Positions 1-14,717 of a stretch of 14,717 bases of DNA are shown here, in pieces. Each line of letters starts with the position of its first letter. Position 1 is the first letter of the stretch. The stretch lies in the NCBI GenBank assembly GCA_013153575.1, contig JAADEE010000025.1, positions 1-14,717 of the forward strand, read 5' to 3'. Under the pieces are notes generated by a model. The model ran no database searches and was not told the DNA's origin. It saw nothing but the letters and a program-made list of their open reading frames with translations. The position numbers and the translations under genes are program-made. The DNA is from Chlorobiota bacterium (GTDB lineage: Bacteria > Bacteroidota > Bacteroidia > Bacteroidales > JAADGE01).

Positions 1-61
1 TGTACTGTTTGTATTTTTCTTCAAGAAATTTTTTTTGTGTTTTTTTTGAAATTTTAGACAT
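1..61 (-). CDS. Partial hypothetical protein, N-terminus only
   Basis: An ATG at 61 on the minus strand opens a frame that stays open to the window edge, giving about 20 residues beginning MSKISKKTQKKF. The peptide is rich in lysine and glutamate, and I do not recognise it. An A-rich leader precedes the ATG on the minus strand, which is usual for Bacteroidota. If real, the gene is transcribed away from the protease gene, and the 70-nt gap at 62-131 would hold two divergent promoters. Twenty codons are too few to prove coding, and an A/T-rich stretch can stay open by chance. Confidence 0.4.
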   Translation of the reverse strand, partial: MSKISKKTQKKFLEEKYKQY

Positions 62-131
62 TTTATATTTTTTCTTGCAACTATTAATATCTTTAACATC
101 TCTTTTATAAGAAATTATAAATTAAAAAGAT

Positions 132-2585: not shown

Positions 2586-2604
2586 TTGTTATTTTATGAA
2601 AAAA

Positions 2605-2630
2605 AGGCTTCATTTATTGAAGCTTTTTTT
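2605..2630. terminator. Bidirectional intrinsic terminator between converging genes
   Basis: The stem GGCTTCA (2606-2612) pairs with TGAAGCT (2618-2624, one G-U pair) around a 5-nt loop. It is preceded by an A run and followed by seven T, so it works in both directions. It sits between the protease stop and the lolD stop and overlaps the last bases of lolD. Confidence 0.85.
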
Positions 2631-3282
2631 ATGTTTTTACAATGCCATCTTCTAAATTAATAATTCTGTCAGACATTTCTGCAAGTTCATTATTGTGAGT
2701 TATTATTACAAAAGTTTGGTTGTATTTTTCACGTAAAGTGAAGAATAACTTATGAAGATCTTTTTTGTTTTTTGTGTCAAGATTGCCGGAAGGTTCATCT
2801 GCAAGAATTACCGATGGATTATTAATTAGTGCTCTGGCAACAGCAACACGTTGTTGTTCACCGCCTGACATTTCTCCGGGTTTATGTTCTGTACGATGTG
2901 ATATGTTTAAAAAGTCAAGTAATTCTTTAGCTTTTTCAGTTGCTTCTTTTTTGCTTTGCCCTTTTATAAATGCAGGCATACAAACATTCTCAATTGCAGT
3001 AAATTCAGGTAAAAGATGATGAAATTGAAATACAAATCCAATGTTTTCATTCCTAAAATCTGAAAGCTGTTTTTGGTTTAGTGTGTTAATGTTTGTATTA
3101 TCAATAATTAATTCACCTTCATCGGGCAAGGACAAAGTTCCTATAATTTGAAGTAATGTTGTTTTTCCTGCACCACTTGGTCCTATAATTGAAACAATTT
3201 CTCCTTTTTTAACATCAAGATTAATGCCTTTTAATACTTGTAGTGTGCCAAAAGATTTTGTTATATTTTTTACTTTTATCAT
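2629..3282 (-). CDS. lolD: LolD-type lipoprotein-releasing ABC transporter ATPase
   Basis: This is an ABC ATPase of 217 residues from the preferred start. Walker A is at 34-41 (GPSGAGKT), the Q-loop at Q86, the signature SGGEQ at 139-143, Walker B at 158-164 (VILADEP) and the H-loop at H196. The segment [16 protein letters not shown] (85-100) and [10 protein letters not shown] are hallmarks of LolD. LolD powers extraction of lipoproteins from the inner membrane for delivery to the outer membrane, together with LolC/E-type permeases that are not in this window. The frame extends upstream to an ATG at 3315, but that would overlap the end of lptC. The ATG at 3282 gives the family's usual N-terminus ([12 protein letters not shown]) and a 13-nt gap after lptC, so I chose it. 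A related MacB-like ATPase is the main alternative. Confidence 0.85.
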
Positions 3283-3295
3283 AGGGAACAGTTTG

Positions 3296-3895
3296 TTATT
3301 TTTTGTTATTATCAATGAAGAAGTTATTGCTTTCGTTTTCTTTAATTATTTTAACACCTGATACATCTGTAAAACGATAAACTGTAAAATCAAGGTTAGA
3401 TTCAAAACCTCCTTCTCCTGTTATTTCAAACCCATCTTTATCTTTAATATTGACAGGTACGACAGAGTAAATTTTTTCTTCATTTTCATCAATTAGCAAT
3501 TCTTCTGTTTTTAAAACACTTCCATTTACATTTGTTAGTATAACATTGCCTTTTGCTTTTGCAAATTTCTTTTTTTCATAATAAATACCATAATCAGCAG
3601 TAAGACTAGAGTGTAGATTGAAATTTTTATCGTAAAACATTAGGTTAATACCATCAGGAAAAAGAGAGTATTGCTTTGTTTCTGATGTATATTTATATGC
3701 TTTTGGTGTTAAAAGTTTAACTTTTGTATTACCATTCAAACTGTATACAGCTTCAAGATTTTCAATAATAACATCCGGTAATTCTTCTTTGTTTGTAAGA
3801 GCTTTAATTTTCTCTAAATCGGTTGTTTCGCATGAAAATAATAAAACTGTTGCGATTATAAATATACTCAAATGTTTTATGTTAAATTTTATCAT
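3296..3895 (-). CDS. lptC: LPS export protein LptC, lipoprotein form
   Basis: The protein has 199 residues. An N-terminal hydrophobic stretch (8-20) ends in a lipobox LFSC with C22, so it is predicted to be a lipoprotein; E. coli LptC instead keeps an uncleaved membrane helix. The remainder is beta-rich with LptC/OstA-like features: [21 protein letters not shown] (98-118) followed by [18 protein letters not shown], which is typical of LptC proteins in this phylum. LptC takes LPS from the LptBFG complex and passes it to the periplasmic LptA bridge. The gene lies 24 nt downstream of the aminotransferase and 13 nt upstream of lolD, so the three are probably co-transcribed. The low sequence conservation of LptC leaves some doubt. 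Confidence 0.75.
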
Positions 3896-3919
3896 ATTTA
3901 AAGAATGTATTATTCTTAT

Positions 3920-5113
3920 TTATTGTAAACTTTCAAGTGCATTTTTTATTCTTTGCATTGCAGTTGTAATTTTATCTTTGCCAAGAGCAAATGAAAAACG
4001 TATGCAATTTGGGTTCCCGAAAGCGGTACCCGGAACAGTTGCAACATGAGCTTCATTAAGTAAAAACATACTTAAGTCAGAAGCATTTTTTATTGTTATG
4101 TAATTATTAACTTTTCCAAAATATTCTCTTATGTCAGGAAAAATATAAAATGCACCTTCAGGGTTATAAGTTTTAAAGCCTGGAATTTCTTTTAAAAGCT
4201 GAACTATTAAATCTCGTCTTTCTCTAAAAGCTTGGTTCATTCCCATTGTGTAAATATTATCACCTTTTAAGGCAGAAATTGCTGCCATTTGCGATATTGA
4301 GCTTGCTCCTGATGTATATTGTCCTTGAAGTTTTATGCAAGAGTCTGCAATCCATTTTGGAGCAGCCATATATCCAATTCTCCAACCAGTCATTGCATAT
4401 CCTTTCGACATTCCGTTTATTAAAATAACACGGTCTTTTATTTCATCAAATTGTGCAATACTTTCGTGTTTTCCAACATAATTAATGTGTTCATAAATTT
4501 CATCAGAAATTACAAAAAGATTTTCATATTTTTTTATTACGTCAACGATTTCGCGTAGTTCTTTTTTTGAATAAACGCTTCCTGCCGGATTAGATGGAGA
4601 ACTATAAATTAAAATTCTCGATTTTGGGGTTATTGCATCTTCAATTTGTTTTGCAGTAACTTTATAATTTGTTGATATATCCGTTTCAATTATTTTAACA
4701 TTTCCTTCTGCCAAATTTATAAGTTCTTTATAGCTTACCCAAAATGGTGATGGTACTAAAATTTCATTTTCATTTCCGATTAATGTTAAAATTGCATTTG
4801 CTAATGCTTGTTTTGCACCATTAGAAACAACAATGTTTTCACGTTTATAATCTAAATTATTTTCTTTTTTTAACTTATCTACAATTGCATCTCTTAACTC
4901 TGAGTAACCTGCAACATGTGTATAAAAAGTAAAATTTTTGTCTATTGCATCTTTTGCTGCTTGTTTTATGTGTGGTGGAGTAGGGAAATCTGGTTGGCCA
5001 ACACTCATGTCAATAATATCAACACCTTTTTCTCTTAACTCTTTGCTTCGTTGAGACATAGCAAGTGTTTGCGATACTGAAATCCTTTTAATTCTTTTTG
5101 ATAGATAAGTCAT
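3920..5113 (-). CDS. PLP-dependent aminotransferase, aspartate aminotransferase (class I) type
   Basis: A 397-residue fold-type I aminotransferase, the normal length for subgroup I-gamma aspartate aminotransferases. Key residues are K237 (NGMSKGYAMTGWR) for the Schiff base, N175 (SPSNPAG) and D204/Y207 (SDEIYEH) for the cofactor ring, R245 for the phosphate, and R372 (IRFSF) for the substrate alpha-carboxylate. SVGQPDFPTP (37-46) and NGAKQAL (98-104) also fit the group. It probably moves the amino group between aspartate and glutamate. Enzymes of this subgroup sometimes also use prephenate or other amino acids, and the sequence alone does not settle this. It is the first gene of the presumed aminotransferase-lptC-lolD operon and has a good promoter just upstream. 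No metabolic link to its two envelope neighbours is evident. Confidence 0.88.
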   Translation of the reverse strand: MTYLSKRIKRISVSQTLAMSQRSKELREKGVDIIDMSVGQPDFPTPPHIKQAAKDAIDKNFTFYTHVAGYSELRDAIVDKLKKENNLDYKRENIVVSNGAKQALANAILTLIGNENEILVPSPFWVSYKELINLAEGNVKIIETDISTNYKVTAKQIEDAITPKSRILIYSSPSNPAGSVYSKKELREIVDVIKKYENLFVISDEIYEHINYVGKHESIAQFDEIKDRVILINGMSKGYAMTGWRIGYMAAPKWIADSCIKLQGQYTSGASSISQMAAISALKGDNIYTMGMNQAFRERRDLIVQLLKEIPGFKTYNPEGAFYIFPDIREYFGKVNNYITIKNASDLSMFLLNEAHVATVPGTAFGNPNCIRFSFALGKDKITTAMQRIKNALESLQ

Positions 5114-5139
5114 TTTTATGAAATAATTAAAAAAGAAAA

Positions 5140-5169
5140 CAAAGGTTTACATTTTTTTTTTATTTGCAA
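5140..5169 (-). promoter_or_regulatory. Bacteroidota-type promoter for the aminotransferase operon
   Basis: On the minus strand, TTG (5169-5167) is followed by a 19-nt spacer and then AACCTTTG (5147-5140). This differs from the TTG-N19-TAnnTTTG consensus at one base. Transcription would start near 5133-5135, leaving a leader of about 20 nt before the ATG at 5113. The remaining gap, to 5282, is A/T-rich with no gene. Confidence 0.55.
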
Positions 5170-5282
5170 GTTTTTTAACTTTTTTTTTAATTTAAATAGA
5201 AAATAATGTTTTAATATAACTGATTTTCTTTATGTTATACTAAATTACTTTAGTAACTGTGGTTTTAGAGATAAGAACATTT

Positions 5283-6074
5283 TTATTTTCTAAATATGTC
5301 TAATTTTAAATTGAAATATTTATCAAAAGCAATTCTATTTGAGAAGAATATTGTAAGAACAACATTTAAAATTGCGGAAGAAAAAATAGTGATAAGAAGC
5401 ATAATCTGATATTTAACAGCAACATTAGGATTGCTTCCTCCAAGTATTTGCCCTGTCATCATTCCGGGCAGTGAAATTAATCCCATAATTGCAGTAGTTG
5501 CAATCATAGGGTTAAATGCCATTCTTAAAGCATCTCGCATAAAAGGTAAAAGCGCTTCTTTTCTTGTAGCTCCATTTGCTAAATGCCATCTATAAAGGTT
5601 TTGCTCATCATCAATTCTTTTGTAATATGCATCGAGTGCAATAATTACATTTTTTATAGTATTGCCTAAAAGCATTCCTGTTACAGGAATAAAATATCTT
5701 GCATCAAAAACATTTTTTAGTTTAACAACAAAACCTAAAAAGTAAACATCAGTTATTGCAATGCTAATAAGCCCTGATAAAAAAATAGGAATAAAAAACA
5801 GTTTAAATTTTAATTTGCTTCTTTTTACAATTGTATAAGATGCAATAATTGACATTATTAAAACCCACAAAATATTTACAAAAGTACTGTTTAATTTAAA
5901 AATATACTCTAAATATAATCCAACAAGTAACAGCTGAATTGTCATTCTAACTGTTGCTATAATTGTATCTTTAACTAATCCTGTTTTGTAATACCAAAGA
6001 ACCAAAACAGGAATAGCCATTAAAGCATAACCAATAAATAACTCAAAATAATTAATATCAATTACTTTTTCCAT
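5283..6074 (-). CDS. fetB: FetB-type ABC transporter permease (UPF0014 family)
   Basis: An integral membrane protein of 263 residues from the ATG at 6074, close to the roughly 260 usual for FetB. Hydrophobic segments lie near 12-28, 37-58, 66-84, 92-115, 129-148 and 224-245. Diagnostic blocks are GMLLGNTIKNVIIALDAYY (133-151), the coupling segment LANGATRKEALLPFMRDALR (165-184) and SLPGMMTGQILGGSNPNVAVKYQ (201-223). In E. coli FetAB exports iron and helps in oxidative stress; substrate here is inferred from family only. The frame also runs upstream to an ATG at 6143, but that adds a 23-residue polar extension overlapping the DUF302 gene. The start at 6074, 31 nt after that gene, gives the family-like N-terminus. 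Its ATPase partner is encoded at 6624-7241. Confidence 0.85.
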   Translation of the reverse strand: MEKVIDINYFELFIGYALMAIPVLVLWYYKTGLVKDTIIATVRMTIQLLLVGLYLEYIFKLNSTFVNILWVLIMSIIASYTIVKRSKLKFKLFFIPIFLSGLISIAITDVYFLGFVVKLKNVFDARYFIPVTGMLLGNTIKNVIIALDAYYKRIDDEQNLYRWHLANGATRKEALLPFMRDALRMAFNPMIATTAIMGLISLPGMMTGQILGGSNPNVAVKYQIMLLITIFSSAILNVVLTIFFSNRIAFDKYFNLKLDIFRK

Positions 6075-6105
6075 TTTGTAAATAATTTGTGGGTATAAGT
6101 AATTG

Positions 6106-6555
6106 CTATTTGTTATTGACTTTTTGTATTGTTTCTTTAACAATTTTTTCCATTGTTCCTGTTACTTTCTTTGATAAAGGGACAATATCAATTTCAGGAA
6201 ACATCATGCTTACCATCCAAGGTTTCATTCTCATAAAACGAAGACTTGTTGTTCCATTTTCTCTTGCTACAATAATAGTTTTAGGCATCATAACACCCAT
6301 GTCGAAACTTAATTCAGTTAAAGCTTTATGCGATTTTGGTGCATTACAAAGGTGAATAATTTTGTATTCGAAATCATCAGCAACCGATAAGTTTTTACTT
6401 GTATAAGTTTCTCTCATATCATGAGTTGCTACAATTCCAAAGTTATTATCTTTTATAACCTCTCCTAATGTTTCAATAACTGTATTAAAGTCTGCTTTTG
6501 TTGTGTGTTTTTCAACAACATCACCCATTAACCATTTTGATAATAATTTTTTCAT
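6106..6555 (-). CDS. DUF302 domain protein between fetA and fetB
   Basis: A 149-residue soluble protein with no signal peptide. The DUF302 region covers about 14-115: a KADFNTVIETLGEVIKDNNFGIV helix-strand start (20-42), then IIHLCNAPKSHKAL (66-79), which contains the family's conserved CN motif (C70, N71), then GVMMPKTIIV (87-96). A hydrophobic, methionine-rich stretch follows (FMRMKPWMVSMMFP, 107-120). The biochemical function of DUF302 is not established. The gene sits between the two halves of a FetA/FetB-type exporter and is 31 nt from fetB, with its own consensus promoter. A role linked to that exporter is inferred from position only. Confidence 0.82.
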   Translation of the reverse strand: MKKLLSKWLMGDVVEKHTTKADFNTVIETLGEVIKDNNFGIVATHDMRETYTSKNLSVADDFEYKIIHLCNAPKSHKALTELSFDMGVMMPKTIIVARENGTTSLRFMRMKPWMVSMMFPEIDIVPLSKKVTGTMEKIVKETIQKVNNK

Positions 6556-6579
6556 TTTTCTTTAATTTAAGATTTGTCA

Positions 6580-6609
6580 CAAAAATACAAATTATAAACA
6601 TATGTGCAA
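6580..6609 (-). promoter_or_regulatory. Consensus promoter for DUF302-fetB
   Basis: On the minus strand, TTG (6609-6607), exactly 19 nt of spacer, and TATTTTTG (6587-6580) match TTG-N19-TAnnTTTG at every defined position. The predicted start of transcription is about 6573, giving a leader near 18 nt before the ATG at 6555. The heptamer ATATGTG occurs at 6600-6606 and 6614-6620, overlapping the spacer and lying upstream of the -33 element. Confidence 0.65.
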
Positions 6610-6623
6610 AACTATATGTGTTT

Positions 6624-7241
6624 TTATTTAAGTTCGATAACAGTATCTGATTTTTTTATCCAGTATTCATCATGCGTAGCAGAAATAACTGTTAAGTTTC
6701 TTTTGCTAAGAATAAAATCTGTAACTTTCATTTTAATACTATCATCTAAAGCCGAAGTAGGTTCATCAATAAGTAATAAAGGTCTGTTAAGTAGTAGGCA
6801 ACTTGCTAGTAAAATTCTTTGTTTTTGCCCTCCGGAAATCTCTTTAGTTTTTTTATTTAATAATTTTGTAGAAAGTTCTAATTCTCTAAATATATCACTA
6901 ATTTCCTTTTCAGAAGGTTTCAATTTTTTATTAATTTCGAAATTAAACGGAGCAAAAAATAATTCTTTAACAGTTTTGAAGTTTAGTGCAGTTTCTTGCG
7001 GAAGCCAAGCTATTTGCTTTCTAATCTCAGATATGTTTTCAGTATTTAGCTGAATGCCATTAATTTGAACATTGCCTTTAAAGTCAGAAATAAAACCGGC
7101 TAATAAATTTAATAGTGTAGATTTTCCTTTTCCTGATTTACCAATAATTGCAACTTTTTCACCTTTGCTAACAGATAATGAAAAATCATTATAAATTATT
7201 TCAGATTTGAAGCTAATGTTTAAGTTCTCAATTTTTATCAT
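6624..7241 (-). CDS. fetA: FetA-type ABC transporter ATPase
   Basis: A compact 205-residue ABC ATPase. Walker A is GKSGKGKST (34-42), the Q-loop Q82, the signature SGGQK 136-140, Walker B LLLIDEP 155-161, the D-loop SALD, and the H-loop H190. WLPQETALNFKTVKELF (79-95) and the short length resemble E. coli FetA (YbbL). The pairing with a FetB permease two genes downstream supports the assignment more than the ATPase sequence does by itself. It would energise FetB. A 68-nt gap with a separate promoter lies between it and the DUF302 gene, so the two exporter subunits may be expressed from different promoters. It is transcribed divergently from marR. Confidence 0.8.
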   Translation of the reverse strand: MIKIENLNISFKSEIIYNDFSLSVSKGEKVAIIGKSGKGKSTLLNLLAGFISDFKGNVQINGIQLNTENISEIRKQIAWLPQETALNFKTVKELFFAPFNFEINKKLKPSEKEISDIFRELELSTKLLNKKTKEISGGQKQRILLASCLLLNRPLLLIDEPTSALDDSIKMKVTDFILSKRNLTVISATHDEYWIKKSDTVIELK

Positions 7242-7255
7242 ATAAAATTTTTATA

Positions 7256-7287
7256 CAAAAGAACAACTTTTTTTTAAATTAAAGCAA
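7256..7287 (-). promoter_or_regulatory. Possible promoter for fetA
   Basis: On the minus strand, TTG (7287-7285) and TTCTTTTG (7263-7256) resemble the Bacteroidota promoter. However, the spacer is 21 nt and one -7 base deviates. It lies 15 nt before the fetA ATG. This is a weak candidate, given mainly because no better one is present. Confidence 0.3.
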
Positions 7288-7295
7288 AAAATACT

Positions 7296-7325
7296 TTGCG
7301 TGCATAATATTTTTTTGTAAATTTG
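7296..7325 (+). promoter_or_regulatory. Consensus promoter for the marR-fad operon
   Basis: TTG (7296-7298), exactly 19 nt of spacer, and TAAATTTG (7318-7325) match TTG-N19-TAnnTTTG perfectly. Transcription would begin near 7331-7333, about 18-20 nt before the marR ATG at 7351. Confidence 0.75.
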
Positions 7326-7336
7326 CAATGCACGCA
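7297..7336. promoter_or_regulatory. Paired palindromic operator, probably bound by the adjacent MarR protein
   Basis: TGCGTGCAT (7297-7305) and ATGCACGCA (7328-7336) form a perfect 9-bp inverted repeat with a 22-bp spacer. Each arm has its own dyad: TGC-GT-GCA in the first and ATGC-AC-GCAT in the second (7328-7337). GCATAATAT also recurs directly at 7302-7310 and 7334-7342, about three helical turns apart. The first arm covers the -33 element and the second covers the expected transcription start. This is the layout expected for autorepression by a dimeric MarR protein. The site is seen; the binding partner is inferred. Confidence 0.6.
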
Positions 7337-7350
7337 TAATATTATTTTAA

Positions 7351-7806
7351 ATGAGATTAACAGAAACAATAGATTTTCACATAAAAAAAACATGGCATTC
7401 ATTAACAAAAATGTATAATCGTATAGCATCACAACATGATGCTTCACAAACTGTTGCATATATACTTGTAAATATTGATAAGGAGGGAACACCTGCAACA
7501 ATTATAGCCCAAAGATTGGGGATGGAAGCAACAAGTCTTAGTCGTGTTATAAAAAATATGGAAGAAAGAGAATTGATATTCAAAGAGGTTGATGGGCAAG
7601 ATAAAAGAGTTATGAAAATCTTTTTAACAGATGCCGGAGTTGAAAAACGCAAACTTGTAAAAAAAACACTTATAGACTTTAATAAAAAAGTATTATCAGC
7701 AATACCTAAAGAAGATATGAAAGTTTTTTATAAAGTTATGAATAAAATTAATGAATTAGCAAGTCAAGAAAATATTAATCAGAAATCACAAAGTGGTTTA
7801 AAGTAA
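7351..7806 (+). CDS. MarR-family transcriptional regulator heading the fad operon
   Basis: A 151-residue winged helix-turn-helix protein. The DNA-binding helices span about 46-70 (GTPATIIAQRLGMEATSLSRVI), followed by EERELI and a wing with the MarR signature D81-GQDKR-VMKIFLTDAG (81-96), where D84 and R86 are the typical conserved pair. The N-terminal helix (1-30) and C-terminal helices (97-140) would make the dimer interface. It is the first gene of the beta-oxidation operon, 37 nt ahead of fadN, and its promoter contains palindromic sites. By analogy with other MarR-type fatty-acid regulators, it probably represses the operon and is released by a fatty acid or acyl-CoA. The ligand is not visible in the sequence. 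Confidence 0.88.
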   Translation: MRLTETIDFHIKKTWHSLTKMYNRIASQHDASQTVAYILVNIDKEGTPATIIAQRLGMEATSLSRVIKNMEERELIFKEVDGQDKRVMKIFLTDAGVEKRKLVKKTLIDFNKKVLSAIPKEDMKVFYKVMNKINELASQENINQKSQSGLK

Positions 7807-7843
7807 TTAAATATCCAATAATCATTCATAAATTAAATAAGTT

Positions 7844-10246
7844 ATGACAAGAAGAATAAGAAAAGTAGCAGTTCTAGGTTCCGGAGTAATGGGTTCCGGT
7901 ATAGCTTGTCATTTTGCGAATATAGGTCTTGAAGTTTTACTTCTTGATATTGTTCCTCGTGAATTGACAGATGCTGAAAAAGCAAAAGGACTGACACTTA
8001 ACGACAAAGCAGTACGAAATCGTATTGTAAACGGTGCATTAAAAGCTGCACTAAAATCAAAACCTTCGCCAATTTATAGGCAAGAGTTTGCAAAACGCAT
8101 AACAACAGGTAATTTTGATGATGACCTTAAAGACATTGCAACTTGCGACTGGGTTATAGAGGTAGTTATCGAGCGCCTTGATATAAAGAAGCAAGTTTTT
8201 GCGAATGTTGAGAAATTCCGTAAAAAAGGAACACTTATTACAACTAACACATCAGGAATTTCAATAGAGAAAATGATTGAAGGACGTAGTGAAGATTTCC
8301 AAAAACATTTTTGCGGAACACACTTCTTTAATCCTCCAAGATATCTGAAATTATTCGAAATTATACCTTCAACAAAAACAGATCCTGAGGTTATTGAATT
8401 TTTAGGAGATTACGCTCGTAGATATTTAGGCAAAACAACTGTTCATGCAAAAGATACGCCGGCATTTATAGCCAATCGTATCGGAACATTTTCAATAATG
8501 TACCTTTTCAATAATGTTCAAAATTATGACTTGAATATTACTGAAATTGATAAACTTACAGGAACATTAATCGGTCGTGCAAAATCGGCAACTTTCAGAA
8601 CCGCCGACGTTGTCGGGCTTGATACTTTGGTACATGTTGCTAATGGTATTAGAGAAAGCACAGATGATGAAGGAACCAAATATTTTGCCATTCCTGATTA
8701 TATTCAAAAAATGCTGGATAATAACTGGTTAGGTTCAAAAACAAAAAAAGGTTTTTCAACCAAGGTTATGGTTGACGGCAAAAAAACTTTTCCAACTTTA
8801 GATTTTGCAACAATGGAATATACCGTTGATGCAAAACCAAAATTTAAAGCACTAGAAAAAACCAAAGGTATTGAAGATATAGGAAAACGCATTGCTATTT
8901 TAATGAAAGACGATGGTAAAGTTGGTAATTTTATGCGAGATAGTTTTTATGCACTTTTCTGGTACTCTTCAAATCGTATTCCTGAAATTACCGATGCTGT
9001 TTATAAAGTTGATGATGCTTTAAATGCAGGTTTTGGTTGGAAATTAGGAACATTCACAACTTGGGATGCAGTAGGCGTTGAAGAAACTGTAAAAGCAATG
9101 GAAAAAGCTGGCAGAAAACCTGCTCAATGGGTTTATGACATGCTTGAAAGCGGTGCAAAAACTTTCTATAAAATAGAAGGAGGACGCAAATTATATTATG
9201 ATATTCCTACAAAATCTTACAAAGTAATTCCGGGTAGTGAAGATATTATTTCTCTTGATATTTTACGAGAAACTAATGTTCTTTATAAAAATGAAGAAGC
9301 AACAATCTTCGATATCGGAGATGGTGTTCTTAATGTTGAGTTCCATTCGAAAATGAACGTAATCGGTGGAGGAACATTACAAGCATTAAACAAAGCCATT
9401 GACTTGGCAGAAGCAGATTATAAGGCAGTTGTTATTCATAATGAAGCTGATAATTTCTCTGCAGGAGCAAATGTTGGTATGATTTTCATGATGGCTGTTG
9501 AACAAGAATGGGACGAGTTAAATTACTCAATACAAATGTTCCAAAATACCATGATGCGACTTCGATATTCAGCAATTCCTGTAATATCTTGTCCTCACGG
9601 AATGACATTAGGAGGAGGTTGCGAGCTTTCAATGCACTCTGATAAAGTTATTGCACATGCTGAAACTTACATGGGACTTGTTGAATTTGGTGTTGGAGTA
9701 ATCCCCGGAGGTGGAGGAACAAAAGAATTTGCTTTACGCTTAGGTGATGAAATTCGTGAAGGCGACATTAGAACAAACCAATTCCTTAATCGTTACCTAA
9801 CAATCGGGCAAGCAAAAGTTTCAACTTCAGCTTATGAAGCATTTGATTTAGGTTACTTACGTGAAGGTATTGACGAAGTTATTGTAAGCTCTGTTGACCA
9901 ACTTGCTTATGCAAAAAAAGTTGCTTTGCAAATGGTTGAAAAAGGTTATACACAACCTGCACCACGTAATAATGTTAAAGTTCTTGGTAAAGAAGTTCAT
10001 GGAATTTGGCTTGTAGGTGCTGATAGCTTTACAGTTGGTGGCTACATGAGTGAACACGATAAGTTAATTGCTGAAAAACTTGGTTTTGTAATGTCGGGAG
10101 GTAACATCTCACAAGCAATGTCAGAAGTTTCGGAGAAATACTTATTAAAACTTGAACGCGAAGCATTTATGGAACTTTGTATGCAGAAAAAAACACTTGA
10201 ACGTATGCAGAGTTTGATTACGAAAGGTAAAATACTTAGAAATTGA
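7844..10246 (+). CDS. fadN: FadN-type 3-hydroxyacyl-CoA dehydrogenase / enoyl-CoA hydratase
   Basis: An 800-residue fused enzyme. The N-terminal half is 3-hydroxyacyl-CoA dehydrogenase: a Rossmann NAD site VAVLGSGVMGSGIA (8-21), catalytic H160 in GTHFFNPP, E172 as its partner, and AFIANRIG (207-214). The C-terminal half (about 485-690) is a crotonase: oxyanion segment FSAGA (538-542), LGGGCE with E594, and LVEFGVGVIPGGGGT with E614. Both hydratase glutamates are kept. This domain order is the reverse of E. coli FadB and matches Bacillus FadN (about 789 residues). It catalyses hydration of 2-enoyl-CoA and NAD-dependent oxidation of the 3-hydroxy product. The ketoacyl-CoA product goes to the thiolase FadA. 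The stop codon overlaps the first copy of the heptad repeat array that begins the first S23 cassette. Confidence 0.93.
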   Translation: MTRRIRKVAVLGSGVMGSGIACHFANIGLEVLLLDIVPRELTDAEKAKGLTLNDKAVRNRIVNGALKAALKSKPSPIYRQEFAKRITTGNFDDDLKDIATCDWVIEVVIERLDIKKQVFANVEKFRKKGTLITTNTSGISIEKMIEGRSEDFQKHFCGTHFFNPPRYLKLFEIIPSTKTDPEVIEFLGDYARRYLGKTTVHAKDTPAFIANRIGTFSIMYLFNNVQNYDLNITEIDKLTGTLIGRAKSATFRTADVVGLDTLVHVANGIRESTDDEGTKYFAIPDYIQKMLDNNWLGSKTKKGFSTKVMVDGKKTFPTLDFATMEYTVDAKPKFKALEKTKGIEDIGKRIAILMKDDGKVGNFMRDSFYALFWYSSNRIPEITDAVYKVDDALNAGFGWKLGTFTTWDAVGVEETVKAMEKAGRKPAQWVYDMLESGAKTFYKIEGGRKLYYDIPTKSYKVIPGSEDIISLDILRETNVLYKNEEATIFDIGDGVLNVEFHSKMNVIGGGTLQALNKAIDLAEADYKAVVIHNEADNFSAGANVGMIFMMAVEQEWDELNYSIQMFQNTMMRLRYSAIPVISCPHGMTLGGGCELSMHSDKVIAHAETYMGLVEFGVGVIPGGGGTKEFALRLGDEIREGDIRTNQFLNRYLTIGQAKVSTSAYEAFDLGYLREGIDEVIVSSVDQLAYAKKVALQMVEKGYTQPAPRNNVKVLGKEVHGIWLVGADSFTVGGYMSEHDKLIAEKLGFVMSGGNISQAMSEVSEKYLLKLEREAFMELCMQKKTLERMQSLITKGKILRN

Positions 10247-10274
10247 TTATTGTTTATCGATTATTGTTTATTGA
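10245..10274 (+). repeat. Left heptad array of S23 cassette 1
   Basis: The 13-mer GATTATTGTTTAT occurs at 10245-10257 and 10259-10271 with a period of 14 nt, which reads as four degenerate heptads (GATTATT, GTTTATC, GATTATT, GTTTATT). It starts inside the fadN stop codon. TATTGTTTAT is perfectly complementary to ATAAACAATA at 10651-10660 on the far side of the enclosed gene. Confidence 0.75.
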
Positions 10275-10283
10275 AAATTGTAT

Positions 10284-10640
10284 ATGACAACAAAAGAATT
10301 ATTAAAAAGAACGAAAGATTTTGCACACAGATGTGTTAAGTTATCAGTTGCTTTGCCAAAAACAAAACTTGGCTATCATATACAAGGTCAATTAATCAGA
10401 TGTTCAACATCGGTTGCTGCAAATTACAGAGCAACAGTTATATCTCAATCAAAAAAGAGTTTTATAGCAAAAATAAGTATTGTTGTTGAAGAGATTGACG
10501 AGTCTGCTTTTTGGTTAGAATTCATTATTGATGAGAACTTAATGAAAAAAGATAGAGTCTCTGATTTGCTTAAAGAAGCAGAAGAACTTACATCCATTTT
10601 CATTGCATCAAGAAAAACAGCAAGCAAAAAAACTAAGTAA
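10284..10640 (+). CDS. Four-helix-bundle protein, S23/bAvd-like family (cassette 1)
   Basis: A 118-residue small basic protein. The region GQLIRCSTSVAANYRATVISQSKKSFIAKISIVVEEIDESAFWLE (35-79) matches the four-helix-bundle family known from 23S rRNA intervening sequences: R39, S41, S43, N47, Y48 and R49 in the signature helix, and E70/D72/WLE in the next. The C-terminus is lysine-rich. The family forms helical-bundle oligomers. A nucleic-acid role is suspected from the related Avd protein of diversity-generating retroelements, but is not proven. It lies 37 nt after fadN and 66 nt before fadA, enclosed by complementary heptad arrays. It has no evident metabolic role in beta-oxidation. I chose ATG 10284 over an in-frame TTG at 10278. 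Confidence 0.85.
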   Translation: MTTKELLKRTKDFAHRCVKLSVALPKTKLGYHIQGQLIRCSTSVAANYRATVISQSKKSFIAKISIVVEEIDESAFWLEFIIDENLMKKDRVSDLLKEAEELTSIFIASRKTASKKTK

Positions 10641-10650
10641 ATAGACAAAA

Positions 10651-10692
10651 ATAAACAATAGTCAAAAAATAATCAATAATAAATAATCAATA
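10651..10692 (+). repeat. Right heptad array of S23 cassette 1
   Basis: ATAAACAATA (10651-10660) is complementary to the left array. It is followed by two copies of AATAATCAATA (10668-10678 and 10682-10692), again at a 14-nt period and readable as heptads AATAATC/AATAATA. These match the reverse complement of the left unit at about 11 of 14 positions. The array ends 14 nt before the fadA ATG. Confidence 0.7.
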
Positions 10693-10706
10693 TTAAATTT
10701 AAAAAA

Positions 10707-11876
10707 ATGGAAGCATATATAGTAGGCGGTTACAGGTCAGCAATAGGCAAAGCACCAAGAGGCAAGTTTAGATTTACTCGCCCCGATGATATAGCAGTTG
10801 CCGTTATAAGACACCTAATGAATGATTTTCCGCAAATAGAAAAATCAAGAATTGACGACGTAGTGGTCGGAAATGCGTTCCCTGAAGCCGAAAGCGGTTT
10901 AAATATGGGACGCTTATTATCATTAATGAGTTTAGATACGATAGAAGTTCCCGGTTCAACAATTAATCGATATTGTGCATCAGGATTAGAAACAATAGCA
11001 GTAGCTACGGCTAAAATCCGTGCAGGAATGGCAGATATGATTATTGCAGGAGGAGCAGAAACAATGTCGATGATAGCAATGGGAGGTTGGAGAAGTGTGC
11101 CAAATCCAACAGTTGCAAAAACACACCCTGACTGGTGGCACGGAATGGGCTTAACAGCCGAAGCTGTTGTTACAGAATATAATGTTACACGTGAAGAGCA
11201 AGATGAGTTTTCTTTAAAATCTCACGAAAAAGCATTAAAAGCTCAAGCAGAAGGTAAATTTGATAGTCAAATTGTACCTATTGAAGTTACCGAAGATTAT
11301 TTTGCAGATGGAAAACATCAAACTCGCAAATATACTGTAAATAAAGACGAAGGACCTCGTAAATCAAATATTGAAGGTTTAGCAAGATTAAAACCGGTAT
11401 TCAAACAAGGAGGAAGTGTTACAGCAGGAAACAGTTCTCAAATGTCTGATGGAGCAGCTTTTGTTTTAGTTGTTTCAGAAAAGATTGTAAAAGAATATAA
11501 TCTTACACCAATTGCTCGTTTGGTTGATTATCAAGTTGCCGGTGTTGAACCATATAAAATGGGTATAGGACCAATTGCGGCAATTCCAAAAGTGTTGAAA
11601 CACGCAGGAATGACAATGGATCAAATAGAACAGTTTGAATTAAATGAAGCTTTTGCTTCTCAATCAATTGCAGTTATTAAGGAGTTAGGTTTAAACCCCG
11701 ATATTGTAAATGTAAATGGTGGAGCAATAGCATTAGGTCATCCGCTTGGAGCAACAGGAGCAAAACTTACCGTTCAGCTTATGAATGAAATGAGGTTAAG
11801 AAAACAAAAATATGGAATGGTAACTATGTGTATTGGTACCGGACAAGGTGGTGCAGGGATATTTGAGTTGTTATAG
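10707..11876 (+). CDS. fadA: Acetyl-CoA acyltransferase (3-ketoacyl-CoA thiolase)
   Basis: A 389-residue thiolase of normal family length. The nucleophile is C90 in NRYCASGLE. NEAF (313-316), H345 in GHPLGATGA and C375 in MCIGTGQGGAG are the remaining active-site blocks. It cleaves 3-ketoacyl-CoA with CoA to give acetyl-CoA and a shortened acyl-CoA, completing each beta-oxidation turn. An N-terminal SAIGKAPRGKFRFTRPDDIA is consistent with degradative thiolases, and the fadN/fadE neighbourhood supports a degradative rather than biosynthetic job. It corresponds to fadA of the Bacillus fadNAE operon (about 391 residues). The gene is separated on both sides from its pathway partners by S23 cassettes. 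Confidence 0.92.
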   Translation: MEAYIVGGYRSAIGKAPRGKFRFTRPDDIAVAVIRHLMNDFPQIEKSRIDDVVVGNAFPEAESGLNMGRLLSLMSLDTIEVPGSTINRYCASGLETIAVATAKIRAGMADMIIAGGAETMSMIAMGGWRSVPNPTVAKTHPDWWHGMGLTAEAVVTEYNVTREEQDEFSLKSHEKALKAQAEGKFDSQIVPIEVTEDYFADGKHQTRKYTVNKDEGPRKSNIEGLARLKPVFKQGGSVTAGNSSQMSDGAAFVLVVSEKIVKEYNLTPIARLVDYQVAGVEPYKMGIGPIAAIPKVLKHAGMTMDQIEQFELNEAFASQSIAVIKELGLNPDIVNVNGGAIALGHPLGATGAKLTVQLMNEMRLRKQKYGMVTMCIGTGQGGAGIFELL

Positions 11877-11885
11877 ATGTTAGGC

Positions 11886-11958
11886 ATGAGATATGAGTAT
11901 TGAGATGTGAGACGCTATACCTAAAATCTAAGTACTCACATCTCTAATCTCAATACTA
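11886..11958 (+). repeat. Left heptad arrays and hairpin of S23 cassette 2
   Basis: Three heptads ATATGAG, TATTGAG, ATGTGAG (11891-11911) are followed after 23 nt by CTCACAT, CTCTAAT, CTCAATA (11935-11955). GAGATGTGAG (11902-11911) pairs perfectly with CTCACATCTC (11935-11944), and AGTATT (11896-11901) with AATACT (11952-11957). One heptad is bulged out. The hairpin lies in the 91-nt gap between fadA and the second S23 gene. Confidence 0.8.
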
Positions 11959-11967
11959 AAAAACAAG

Positions 11968-12324
11968 ATGCATAATCTAAAAGAACTATATGTTTGGAAT
12001 AAAGCAATGATTTTAACAATTGAAGTTTATGAAGCAGTTGCAAACTTTCCGATTGATGAAAGGTTTGGGTTAACCTCTCAAATTAAGCGTTCAGCTGTTT
12101 CTATTCCTTCAAATATTGCAGAAGGTGCAGGGAGAAATAATGTGAAAGAATTTATCCATTTTCTAGGTATTTCAAACGGTTCTTCTTTTGAGTTACAAAC
12201 ACAAATAATTCTTGCAAATAAATTAAATCTAATAAGTAAAGAAATTTCAAATTCAATATTAAATAAAATTGATGAAATTCAGAAAATGACTTATGGTTTA
12301 ATAAAAAAGTTAAGAAATAATTAA
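11968..12324 (+). CDS. Four-helix-bundle protein, S23 family (cassette 2)
   Basis: A 118-residue protein of the classic S23 intervening-sequence type. It has LKELYVWNKAMILTIEVYEAV (4-24) as the first helix, FPIDERFGLTSQIKRSAVSIPSNIAEGAGR (27-56) with the signature R41-S42, S45, P47, N49, A51, E52, G53, and FLGISNGSSFELQTQIILA (65-83) with the conserved E75/T78/Q79 segment. It differs clearly from the copy at 10284-10640, which belongs to another branch of the fold, so the two are not a recent local duplication. It lies between fadA and fadE, flanked by heptad arrays. The molecular function is unknown, and no beta-oxidation role is apparent. Confidence 0.9.
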   Translation: MHNLKELYVWNKAMILTIEVYEAVANFPIDERFGLTSQIKRSAVSIPSNIAEGAGRNNVKEFIHFLGISNGSSFELQTQIILANKLNLISKEISNSILNKIDEIQKMTYGLIKKLRNN

Positions 12325-12375
12325 TCTGATTTGAAACAATACTTATAAGATAAATTCAAAAGTCTAAAACTTAAT

Positions 12376-12397
12376 GTCTCAAATCTCAAATCTCAAA
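12376..12397 (+). repeat. Right heptad array of S23 cassette 2
   Basis: Three exact copies of TCTCAAA occupy 12377-12397 and end 3 nt before the fadE ATG. GTCTCAAATCTCAA (12376-12389) is complementary at 13 of 14 positions to TTGAGATGTGAGAC (11900-11913) on the other side of the S23 gene. Confidence 0.8.
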
Positions 12398-12400
12398 AAA

Positions 12401-14185
12401 ATGGAAAATAAAAAAATAATAAAAGGTGGAGAATTCTTAGTAAAAGAAACTTCATTCAAAGATATCTTCATTCCTGAAGAATTTAATGAAGAACAAAACA
12501 TGATGGCACAAATGTGCTATGATTTTGTTGATGCAAAGGTTTTACCAAATATTGATGCTCTTGATAAACATGATAGAGAATTACTATTAAAACTTTTAAA
12601 AGAAGCAGGAGAACAAGGCTTACTTGGAGTTTCTGTTCCTGAAGAATATGAAGGCTTTGGGCAAAATACTGTAACCTCAATGAGAGTTGCAGAAGCAATG
12701 GGAGGCAGTTTTTCATATGTAGTAGCATTTTCTGCTCATACAGGAATTGGAACATTACCTATTCTTTATTACGGAAATGAAGAACAAAAGAAAAAATATT
12801 TACCAAAACTTGCAAGTGGTGAGTATATAGGAGCTTATTGTTTAACAGAGCCGGGTGCAGGATCTGATGCAAATTCAGGAAAATCAAAAGCTATTTTAAG
12901 TGAAGATGGTACATATTACACATTAAATGGTGTGAAAATGTGGATTACAAATGGTGGAATTGCTGATTTACACATAGTTTTTGCAAAAATTAATGATGAT
13001 AAAAATCTTTCAGCATTTATTGTAGAAAGCTCTTGGGATGGAGTAACAATTGGTGCAGATGAAGAGAAAATGGGTATAAGAGGCTCATCAACAGTTCAAG
13101 TTTATTATGAAGATGTAAAAGTGCCTGCAGAGAACCTTCTTGGTGAAAGAAATGAAGGATTTAAAATTGCACTTAACATCTTAAATTTAGGAAGATTAAA
13201 ACTTGGAGGGTCAACTGTTGGAGCATCAAAAGCTGTTGCTACAAGTGCTGTTAAGTACGCAAATGAAAGAAAGCAGTTTAAAACACCTATTTCTCAATTT
13301 GGAGCAATTAAACACAAACTTGCAGAAATGGTAATAAGGACTTTTGCTGCTGAATCTATTATGTATCGTGTGAGCCAAAATGTTGATGATAAAATCCAAG
13401 AACATATTGCAAATGGTATGGATAAAGGTAAAGCATCAATGGAAGGACTTCGTCAATATGCTGTTGAGGCTGCCATTGCAAAAGTTTATGGCTCAGAAAC
13501 ATTAGATTATGTTGTTGATGAGGGTGTTCAAATTTACGGAGGAATGGGATATTCTGCTGAAACTGATGTTGAACGTGCTTATAGAGATGCAAGAATTAAT
13601 CGTATTTTTGAAGGTACCAATGAAATTAACCGTATGGTAATGGTTGGCGAACTTCTTAAAAGAGCTTTTAAAGGTGAGATTGATGTTTTAGGACCTGCAA
13701 TGGAAGTTGGAAAAGAGCTTATGGGTATTCCTGATTTTGGAGATACAACTCAAGATTATTTTGAACTTAAAAAGAAAGCTCTTAAAAATTTCAAAAAAGC
13801 AATTTTAATGGTTGCAGGAGCAGCAGCTCAAAAATATCAAGATAAATTGCAACAAGAGCAAGAGCTTCTGTTTGCAGTTGCAGATATGCTTATGTTAACT
13901 TATGCATCAGAATCTTTTATGCTTCGTGTTGAAAAAATACAAGATATGAAAGGTGAAGATAAAGTAGAACTTCTTAAACTTATGCTTGATGTATATTTTT
14001 ATGATGTTGCTGCAGCAATTAAGAAATTTGGAGATGATGCAGTAAATTCATTTGCTGAAGGTAATGAAAGAATGGGAATGTTAATGGGAATGAAACGTTT
14101 CACTAAAGTTGATGGTGTAAACGTAATTGCAGCAAGACGTAAAATTGCTAATAAGATTATTGAAGATAATAAATACCCATTTTAA
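12401..14185 (+). CDS. fadE: Acyl-CoA dehydrogenase, FadE type
   Basis: A 594-residue acyl-CoA dehydrogenase with a C-terminal extension, the same length as Bacillus FadE. FAD/substrate blocks are YCLTEPGAGSDA (146-157), KMWITNGG (179-186), ERKQFKTPISQFGAIKHKLAEM (289-310) and QIYGGMGYSAETDVERAYRD (377-396). The catalytic base is E404 in RIFEGTNEINR. A long C-terminal domain (about 430-594), as in VLCAD/ACAD9-like enzymes, follows. It performs the first step of beta-oxidation, passing electrons to an electron-transfer flavoprotein not in this window. The frame also has an ATG at 12374, but the nine extra codons are just translated TCTCAAA repeats. The ATG at 12401 gives MENKKIIKGGEFLVKE, the family-like N-terminus. 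Confidence 0.92.
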   Translation: MENKKIIKGGEFLVKETSFKDIFIPEEFNEEQNMMAQMCYDFVDAKVLPNIDALDKHDRELLLKLLKEAGEQGLLGVSVPEEYEGFGQNTVTSMRVAEAMGGSFSYVVAFSAHTGIGTLPILYYGNEEQKKKYLPKLASGEYIGAYCLTEPGAGSDANSGKSKAILSEDGTYYTLNGVKMWITNGGIADLHIVFAKINDDKNLSAFIVESSWDGVTIGADEEKMGIRGSSTVQVYYEDVKVPAENLLGERNEGFKIALNILNLGRLKLGGSTVGASKAVATSAVKYANERKQFKTPISQFGAIKHKLAEMVIRTFAAESIMYRVSQNVDDKIQEHIANGMDKGKASMEGLRQYAVEAAIAKVYGSETLDYVVDEGVQIYGGMGYSAETDVERAYRDARINRIFEGTNEINRMVMVGELLKRAFKGEIDVLGPAMEVGKELMGIPDFGDTTQDYFELKKKALKNFKKAILMVAGAAAQKYQDKLQQEQELLFAVADMLMLTYASESFMLRVEKIQDMKGEDKVELLKLMLDVYFYDVAAAIKKFGDDAVNSFAEGNERMGMLMGMKRFTKVDGVNVIAARRKIANKIIEDNKYPF

Positions 14186-14210
14186 TTTTATTAAAAACTA
14201 TAAATAATAT

Positions 14211-14246
14211 CCTTTGGGTTTTTTAACCTGAAGGGTTTTATTTTAT
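14211..14246 (+). terminator. Intrinsic terminator of the marR-fad operon
   Basis: CCTTTGGGTT (14211-14220) pairs over all 10 positions, two of them G-U, with AACCTGAAGG (14225-14234) around a TTTT loop. A T-rich tail follows. It lies 25 nt after the fadE stop. The rest of the gap to 14371 is A/T-rich with nothing else recognised. Confidence 0.8.
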
Positions 14247-14371
14247 ATGTTACAATAATTTAAGTAAGCTGTTTTTTTAATATATAAGATATTTTATGAT
14301 ATTAACATTTTGATTTTTATTGGTTATAGTTTATAAAACTTTTATTTATAACTTCTTTAAAGCTTTAAAAA

Positions 14372-14717
14372 ATGAAAAAAAAATATTATCATTAGTATTC
14401 CTTTTTTTTACCTTTTCAGTTTATGCTCAAACTTATTTATCAGAGCAAAATATTATAATAGAAACATTAACTAATGGTGCTGAGTGTGTTTATTCAATAG
14501 ATTTGGATGGAGATGGAGATAATGATATACTTTCGGCATCTTATGAAGATGATAAAATAGCGTGGTATGAGAATGATGGTAGTGGTAATTTTTCTTCACA
14601 AAAGATAATAACAACATTAGCAGATGGTGCTACAAGTGTTTATTCAATAGATTTGGATGGAGATGGAGATAATGATATACTTTCGGCATCTTATGAAGAT
14701 GATAAAATAGCGTGGTA
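14372..14717 (+). CDS. Secreted VCBS/FG-GAP repeat protein, partial, with start frameshifted at a poly(A) run
   Basis: The frame open through the window end reads a signal peptide (ILSLVFLFFTFSVYAQ) and then repeats of the form VYSIDLDGDGDNDILSASYEDDKIAW, typical of VCBS/FG-GAP calcium-binding beta-propeller repeats. No ATG exists in that frame. The ATG at 14372-14374 is followed by nine A (14375-14383) and then runs into TAG at 14393. With ten A the product would begin MKKKILSLVF, an ideal signal peptide. The cause may be a homopolymer base-calling error, phase variation or slippage. The ID-DGDGD calcium loop (about every 50 residues) is seen twice. The protein is probably exported; a T9SS tail beyond the window would be expected but cannot be seen. 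The gene continues past 14717. Confidence 0.75.
14486..14717 (+). repeat. 150-bp tandem repeat in the VCBS gene
   Basis: The segment at 14636-14717 is identical over 82 bp to 14486-14567, a period of 150 bp or 50 codons. The intervening 68 bp (14568-14635) completes the unit. The repeat continues beyond the window edge. Confidence 0.95.

Follow-up and report, generated by a model that had tools for sequence, protein, structure and literature searches.

S23 genes between complementary heptad arrays at two junctions of a fad operon are probably small mobile intervening elements of the kind found in 23S rRNA genes

The window analysed here is the whole of a 14,717-nucleotide (nt) stretch (JAADEE010000025.1, positions 1-14,717; assembly GCA_013153575.1, a source genome of 1.75 Mb that is 71% complete), and it carries a fad operon in which both inner junctions hold a gene of the S23 family of four-helix-bundle proteins, S23a between fadN and fadA and S23b between fadA and fadE. 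It is probable that each of these cassettes is a small mobile intervening element, made up of an S23 gene and mutually reverse-complementary arrays of 7- or 8-nt repeats, and that it and the S23-coding intervening sequences (IVS) of 23S rRNA genes are one kind of element. Elements of this class share one anatomy and have arms whose complementarity is specific to the locus; they lie mostly in the sense direction and close to a stop codon, are present or absent at one and the same junction, encode a protein under purifying selection and include a copy within a 23S rRNA gene that has the same arms.

All features located here lie on the + strand of the window. Cassette 1 opens with a left array of the heptads AAATTGA, TTATTGT, TTATCGA, TTATTGT, TTATTGA and AAATTGT (10240-10281; lag 7, p = 0.001; lag 14, p = 0.0005), continues with S23a (10284-10640; 118 amino acids from its ATG) and closes with a right array that complements the left (10647-10702; lag 7, p = 0.006; complementarity, p = 0.0025), positions 10240-10272 and 10668-10700 being 82% complementary across 33 nt. 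Inspection of the left side of cassette 2 identified six G-strand heptads (TAGATGT, TAGGCAT, GAGATAT, GAGTATT, GAGATGT and GAGACGC; 11874-11915) and then, at 11921-11962, six C-strand heptads which, on a pairing search, form their local hairpin partner, and for this entire left side lag 7 gives p = 0.0015. S23b (11968-12324; 118 amino acids) is followed by a right array of the CTCAAAT type (12364-12398; lag 7, p = 0.004) that is complementary to 11894-11913 (p = 0.003). Given the C-strand array to the left of S23b, the left G-strand array has two mutually exclusive partners, either the local one or the right array. Lags 5, 6, 8 and 9 are non-significant in all four cassette flanks when compared with dinucleotide shuffles. 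Both genes match PF05635 (S23a with 52.1 and S23b with 134.5 bits against a cut-off of 33.8) as well as TIGR02436, and the relatives of S23b in the PDB, by sequence, are 2gsc and 2rld, of which 2gsc is a homopentamer according to the available part of PMC4990558. A preliminary description of this DNA had placed an S23 gene between pairable 7-nt arrays in both fad gaps, which these values confirm, and had held that the two cassettes are not local duplicates. Copying of one cassette into the second is indeed excluded, given that S23a and S23b are 15% identical in alignment and fall in separate clades of a quick S23 tree (196 rows, 121 columns), where the S23a clade comprises 6 rows, every one of them at fadN-fadA. 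The source genome has seven PF05635 matches, six above the family cut-off and one truncated at a contig end; by eye, all seven loci have 7- or 8-nt arrays with a unit that differs per locus, the array of the truncated one being visible on the right side only.

The same anatomy was found across a wider S23 set, taken from the source and related genomes (60 genomes searched, among the matches listed), from stretches of 60 further places and from the 80 genome records that ranked best among 585 confirmed S23b-group matches. This gave 214 S23 domains, of which 200 were kept after dropping duplicates (identical gene plus 60 nt), with neighbouring genes called by a simple script for open reading frames (ORFs) and not taken from annotation. 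Flanks were usable for periodicity on the left of 153 and on the right of 146 of the 200 genes, and were compared with 244 usable control gaps of 250 drawn from the 566 intergenic gaps of the S23 loci. The mean z-score at lag 7, relative to shuffles, was 2.93 for left and 3.41 for right flanks versus 0.46 for control gaps, and z exceeded 3 in 0.48, 0.68 and 0.09 of them, respectively, so that the arrays are several-fold rarer in other gaps. At lag 8 the corresponding fractions were 0.14, 0.10 and 0.03; lag 14 parallels lag 7 and the remaining lags within 4-15 stay at or below 0.06. Expressed per gene, the period is 7 in 125, 8 in 23 and another lag in 9, with no period in 28 and no usable flank in 15. 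In the 147 genes whose two gaps are each at least 40 nt, the local complementarity score between left and right flank averages 21.3 for own pairs versus 8.8 for cross-locus pairs, and the own pair ranks in the top 5% of cross-locus pairs in 120 of the 147, versus 47 of 338 control genes. Fixed terminal inverted repeats common to all copies are ruled out by this same comparison. Kinship within the sample was reduced in a thinned set of 43 S23 proteins, each less than 50% identical, and there significance at lag 7 or 8 is reached by 51% of the 39 left flanks and by 78% of the 36 on the right, and the arms of 75% of 36 genes rank within the top 5%. The best array windows have more G than C in the left arm (76% of 82) and more C than G in the right arm (83% of 101). 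Both the 7-nt period and the inverted complementarity are therefore general over the 200 genes, and the earlier proposal of an element class that conserves the style of its repeats over their sequence is strongly supported by the period, arm and thinned-set tests.

A sceptical explanation is that the arrays are ordinary slippage-prone repeats, unconnected with S23, within which S23 genes have landed by chance. In its favour, gene-free arrays occur in 40 of 551 other gaps, and arrays of the heptamer TAACTGA have been published without S23 in what is accessible of PMC4679880. However, this is very improbable for three reasons: first, the excess beside S23 is large and two-sided, with the two sides complementary within the locus; second, the motif tends to track the S23 subfamily across different places; and third, the departure from shuffles lies mainly at 7, with its double 14, and at 8. 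S23 remnants were found in 0 of the 40 gene-free arrays. When gene-free arrays were drawn again, 32 of 43 shared a locus with an array-bearing S23 gene, and only 28% of those 32 match the motif of the same-locus S23 in the top 5%.

The relation between motif and subfamily was followed through the overlap of arm 6-mers between loci without a common neighbour. This overlap is 0.095-0.098 at S23 identities below 50% and 0.124 at 50-65%; it rises to 0.213 for the 59 pairs at 65-80% and to 0.329 for the 10 pairs with at least 80%, random pairs having 0.106. The idea of one heptad per host genome was rejected, given an overlap of 0.133 for pairs of unlike S23 genes in the same genome (n = 101) versus 0.274 (n = 118) for pairs from different genomes whose S23 proteins share at least 65% identity. 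Some of seven S23 clusters have a private motif, such as GGCAG, present in 7 of 9 members (8 genomes) versus 2% elsewhere, or GTTGC, in 6 of 6 members versus 8% elsewhere. The choice between periods 7 and 8 is loosely bound to lineage, with 15 changes on the tree compared with a shuffled mean of 21.8 (0 of 300 shuffles as low). Judged from these sequences, the array motif tends to go with the S23 subfamily and not with the host genome. Such coupling would fit recognition of the array by the encoded S23, and hitch-hiking of the arm with its gene may also explain part of it. The protein itself is under purifying selection, with a median ratio of non-synonymous to synonymous substitution (dN/dS) of 0.094 in the 76 of 90 pairs, not independent of one another, that have a usable dS.

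S23 is co-directional with both neighbours in 156 of 167 cases, versus 398 of 675 control triples (both gaps below 400 nt; Fisher p = 3e-20, a value that ignores kinship among loci), and in 29 of 33 in the thinned set. The stop codon of the upstream gene is TAG at 69 of 169 S23 loci versus 231 of 1072 other genes (p = 2e-7). A left array start was found at 123 of the 169 loci; its median distance from the first stop-codon base is 6 nt, and in 44 it falls inside that codon. At the fad operon, the stop codons TGA of fadN (10244-10246) and TAG of fadA (11874-11876) both belong to the first heptad. Given median gaps of 70 nt to the left and 60 nt to the right of S23, the element occupies nearly all the space between a stop codon and the next start. 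The host junctions range from mraY-murD to cas6-cas4.

S23-free versions exist in relatives at the fad junctions, about which the preliminary description had asked, and also at mraY-murD and purE-purD. Neither of the two outcomes that would have refuted that description, fad junctions occupied throughout or arrays equally common in other gaps, is thus observed. Over 23 fadA loci of the source and related genomes, S23 is present in 9 of 21 readable fadN-fadA junctions and missing from 12, and present in 6 of 18 readable fadA-fadE junctions and missing from 12. In one relative (L020) both fad junctions are, by eye, short and array-free; in others they hold hairpins, gene-free arrays or an ORF of the GxxExxY family (PF13366), the latter at fadN-fadA in L010 and L019 and, with an internal stop, at fadA-fadE in L023. 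Other hairpin repeats (CCCCCTATCCCCC..., CACGGATTT...) are seen at fadN-fadA in L014 and at both fad junctions in L009. The fadN-fadA junction of L024 has a tandem duplicate of the S23a element with identical proteins, and those of L013 and L022 have gene-free arrays that by eye resemble deletion scars of an S23 element. At mraY-murD (15 of 22 loci inspected, 14 readable), S23 is present in the source genome only, and in 10 of the 13 readable relatives the gap string is at most 60 nt; a congener (G009) has an S23 79% identical to this copy directly downstream of murD instead. In L265 the mraY-murD junction holds a different small ORF, KilA-N-like by eye, and then heptad-like sequence. At purE-purD (9 loci inspected, purD start located in 7), S23 is present in the source genome, absent from G002, and represented by a copy with an internal stop in G006; in the rest, other sequence lies upstream of purD. 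Y1 (IS200-like) transposase ORFs adjoin purD at this junction in L240 and L245. As for a mobile element in the broad sense, the same junction is thus occupied in some close relatives and free of S23 in others, and related copies with related ends are found at other sites.

The S23 tree requires 20 changes between fad and other sites, of which at least 7 are forced by its starred branches; at the same time the fad and other labels are clustered on it (none of 500 shuffles gave so few changes), a slow turnover for a mobile element. Together, the forced changes and the clustering make both repeated arrival and a long stay at fad likely, as read from the tree. The fad placement is therefore not special to the source genome, as might have been supposed from the preliminary description, since it recurs across Bacteroidota: 37 of the 200 genes sit at fadN-fadA and 23 at fadA-fadE, counts that are inflated because 80 loci were chosen by the S23b query. 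Long persistence at these junctions suggests partial domestication. This raises the further possibility that S23 and its arms are a domesticated operon module, splitting the mRNA at a long stem through RNase III or controlling how the gene that follows is translated, while S23 would serve as a feedback RNA-binding protein. The tree-clustered recurrence at fad, the purifying selection on S23, the two exclusive pairings available in cassette 2 and the predicted folds, in which the arms pair by at least 12 pairs at 80% of 80 sampled loci (of 143) versus 29% with a swapped right arm, would all be consistent with such a module. Nevertheless, this explanation is unlikely as a whole: S23 is missing from 12 of 21 and 12 of 18 readable fad junctions, the same sites are held by unrelated S23 clades, a GxxExxY gene and other hairpins, at least seven site changes are forced, the hosts are diverse and the arms have no excess of G·U pairs. 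As to the last point, mismatches in the arms of 129 loci are not preferentially G·U when compared with A·C (150 versus 223; per locus, 47 versus 50), in a test that is weak because the arms differ in base composition. It thus gives no sign of selection for pairing in sense RNA, and no support to the RNA processing or translation control that the preliminary description had envisaged; a hairpin at the DNA level or separate binding of each arm fits equally.

If these are mobile elements, an enzyme would have to be supplied in trans, and the numbers of candidate families over 60 genomes were compared with that of S23. The correlation is strongest for the Y1 transposase (rho 0.62; partial 0.54 given genome size and DDE_Tnp_1 number), followed by GxxExxY (rho 0.58) and DDE_Tnp_1 (rho 0.32; partial 0.21 given size), and is absent for the reverse transcriptase family RVT_1 (rho 0.16; partial -0.02 given size). 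The last value bears on the possibility that a reverse transcriptase in trans copies the RNA of the element, with S23 acting as does Avd, the accessory protein of diversity-generating retroelements. S23 is related to Avd by weak profile matches (see also the part of PMC10053308 that is available), and the mostly sense orientation within transcribed regions, rRNA included, would suit an RNA intermediate. However, mobility of this sort is improbable, given the lack of an S23-RVT_1 correlation and of any RVT_1 match in 13 of 29 genomes, some of them incomplete, with at least three S23 genes. S23b, as the sole query, found no match in a phage collection.

Several observations weigh against the interpretation as a mobile S23 element, besides the gene-free arrays, the slow change of sites and the G·U result given above. 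The cassettes encode no enzyme, and none of the S23 loci compared directly revealed an insertion event, an excision or a target duplication. The correlation with Y1 ignores phylogeny and genome completeness and is a lead only; the 71% complete source genome has no Y1 transposase. No period exceeds the threshold in 28 of 185 S23 genes with usable flanks, and the biggest S23 cluster (74 genes, S23b type) has a loose motif, AGATA in 36 of 74 versus 15% elsewhere. On plasmids, S23 is co-directional with both neighbours in only six of ten annotated loci, and both neighbours are antisense to it in three. Finally, the sample is mostly Bacteroidota with few other phyla, and 80 of its loci were picked by similarity to S23b.

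With the mobile S23 element retained as the preferred interpretation, it is suggested that an oligomeric S23 recognises its own array, with about one repeat per bound unit. Such recognition would preserve the period and the motif, while slippage and hairpin-templated correction would allow the letters to drift. The element would move rarely, as a hairpin-ended unit, through an enzyme in trans for which Y1 transposases may be the best lead, and would persist where a break in the transcript is harmless, that is, at rRNA helix tips or in stop-to-start gaps; in operons it would be read from the host promoter. A more general proposition, possible but rather less likely to be right than wrong, is that S23 elements, and perhaps in parallel those of GxxExxY, have ends set by period and self-complementarity and not by a fixed sequence, which the protein reads as a period plus subfamily motif, which can be rebuilt and which a hairpin-reading Y1 enzyme acts on in trans, 23S IVS being one niche and operon stop codons the main one. 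If true, ends kept by period and pairing and free in their letters would be an unusual definition of a mobile element.

S23 inserts in 23S rRNA are already known, and so are the likely homology of S23 and Avd (PMC10053308) and the TAACTGA arrays (PMC4679880). No link of S23 genes with locus-specific complementary heptad arrays was found in the open-licence literature, as far as its available text extends, save the heptamers of Coxiella (PMC4990558). The S23 family is a common one, in which a single query has 7026 relatives at E <= 0.001, and the portion of PMC4990558 at hand reports the function of S23 proteins as unknown and calls the origin of 23S IVS unclear. A common design in rRNA and operon sites gives S23 a candidate partner, its own array, and a general niche, and it is possible that this design explains many of the locus-specific heptamer repeats in bacterial intergenic DNA.

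The genes that host the two cassettes were named from protein-family matches. The fadN-like 3-hydroxyacyl-CoA dehydrogenase/enoyl-CoA hydratase (7844-10246) has a high family score, yet its best listed NCBIfam model, with 561 bits, remains below its own cut-off of 999. The fadA-like acetyl-CoA acyltransferase (10707-11876) is a high-scoring family match whose TAG stop opens the next array. The acyl-CoA dehydrogenase fadE (12401-14185) matches NF058590 with 755 bits against a cut-off of 600; its start is most likely 12401 and not 12374, because the 12374 frame overlaps the array and the alignments of relatives begin around 12401.

Among known systems, the Avd of diversity-generating retroelements belongs to a related fold family, and homology with S23 is considered likely in the accessible part of PMC10053308. 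The profile matches of the cassette proteins are weak and below cut-off (PF22296, 28 bits versus 40; NF033474, 24.5 bits versus 80), and no reverse transcriptase lies beside the cassettes, the sole RVT_1 match of the 71% complete source genome being on contig C162 and the window being contig C258. The intergenic TAACTGA heptamer arrays of Beggiatoaceae, cyanobacteria and Bacteroidetes (MacGregor 2015, PMC4679880) resemble the S23 arms in their 7-nt period, their closeness to stop or start codons and their indels in 7-nt steps; they differ in being direct repeats of one fixed heptamer, with S23 unmentioned in the text available, whereas S23 elements use any heptamer, have paired arms and carry S23 inside.

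GxxExxY genes, like S23, are small ORFs enclosed by complementary repeats, and they occupy operon junctions where S23 is also found; they belong to a different protein family, PF13366, which has no match in the source genome. Their repeats (for instance CACAGAG and CTCCGTG; L010, L019, L023 and L207-L232) have by eye a period near 9-10 nt that is weak in the test, where 8-15% of 26 flanks exceed z = 3 at lags 9-10, and their arms fall in the top 5% for 42% of 26 (26 of 30 loci yielded an ORF). REP/RAYT, IS200/IS605 and MITE-type elements are small, hairpin-ended and intergenic, and S23 elements are alike in this and possibly also moved by Y1 in trans; they differ from these in encoding S23 and in having ends defined by period and self-complementarity with no fixed sequence.

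The closest likeness is to the S23-coding IVS of Leptospira, Coxiella and others, which share with the cassettes an S23 ORF between complementary ends able to form a stem, and a sporadic presence. Copies beyond Bacteroidota chromosomes extend this comparison. Of 31 plasmid records with S23 matches, mostly cyanobacterial, 12 were inspected by eye, and 11 of these loci have heptads on at least one side, such as GGGAGTA in Nostoc edaphicum and AAAAGCT in Pseudanabaena; none were seen at the locus of the Calothrix 7716 plasmid (L285). In three cyanobacterial plasmid loci (L282, L285 and L289), S23 is opposite to both annotated neighbours, unlike most chromosomal copies. In L283 and L287, also on cyanobacterial plasmids, the S23 element lies between cas6 and cas4, and the 23S rRNA IVP domain named in a survey of CRISPR systems (PMC10910872, in its available part) might correspond to passenger S23 elements like these two. 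In Azospirillum lipoferum, the plasmid S23 copy sits within a 23S rRNA gene (1133 bits over the whole stretch), with arms built of CAGAGGA/CGGATGA heptads, to which the right side is complementary. The left junction, seen in the alignment, places the start of this insert past about model position 1218, which we take to be helix 45. The Coxiella 23S insert, in helix 45, is reported to carry GACAGAT heptamers in tandem and to end in a 28-bp stem that is cleaved by RNase III, and excision is published for rRNA copies (PMC4990558). The window cassettes are not inside a 23S rRNA gene; they and their relatives lie between protein genes of operons, with several subfamilies per genome. The distinct niche that the preliminary description had proposed for them thus holds in respect of operon placement, with the correction that the 23S insert is no different in design, having the same heptad arms. 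Given the arms in Azospirillum and the heptamers in Coxiella, the operon copies are best interpreted as one kind of element with the rRNA inserts, in another niche.

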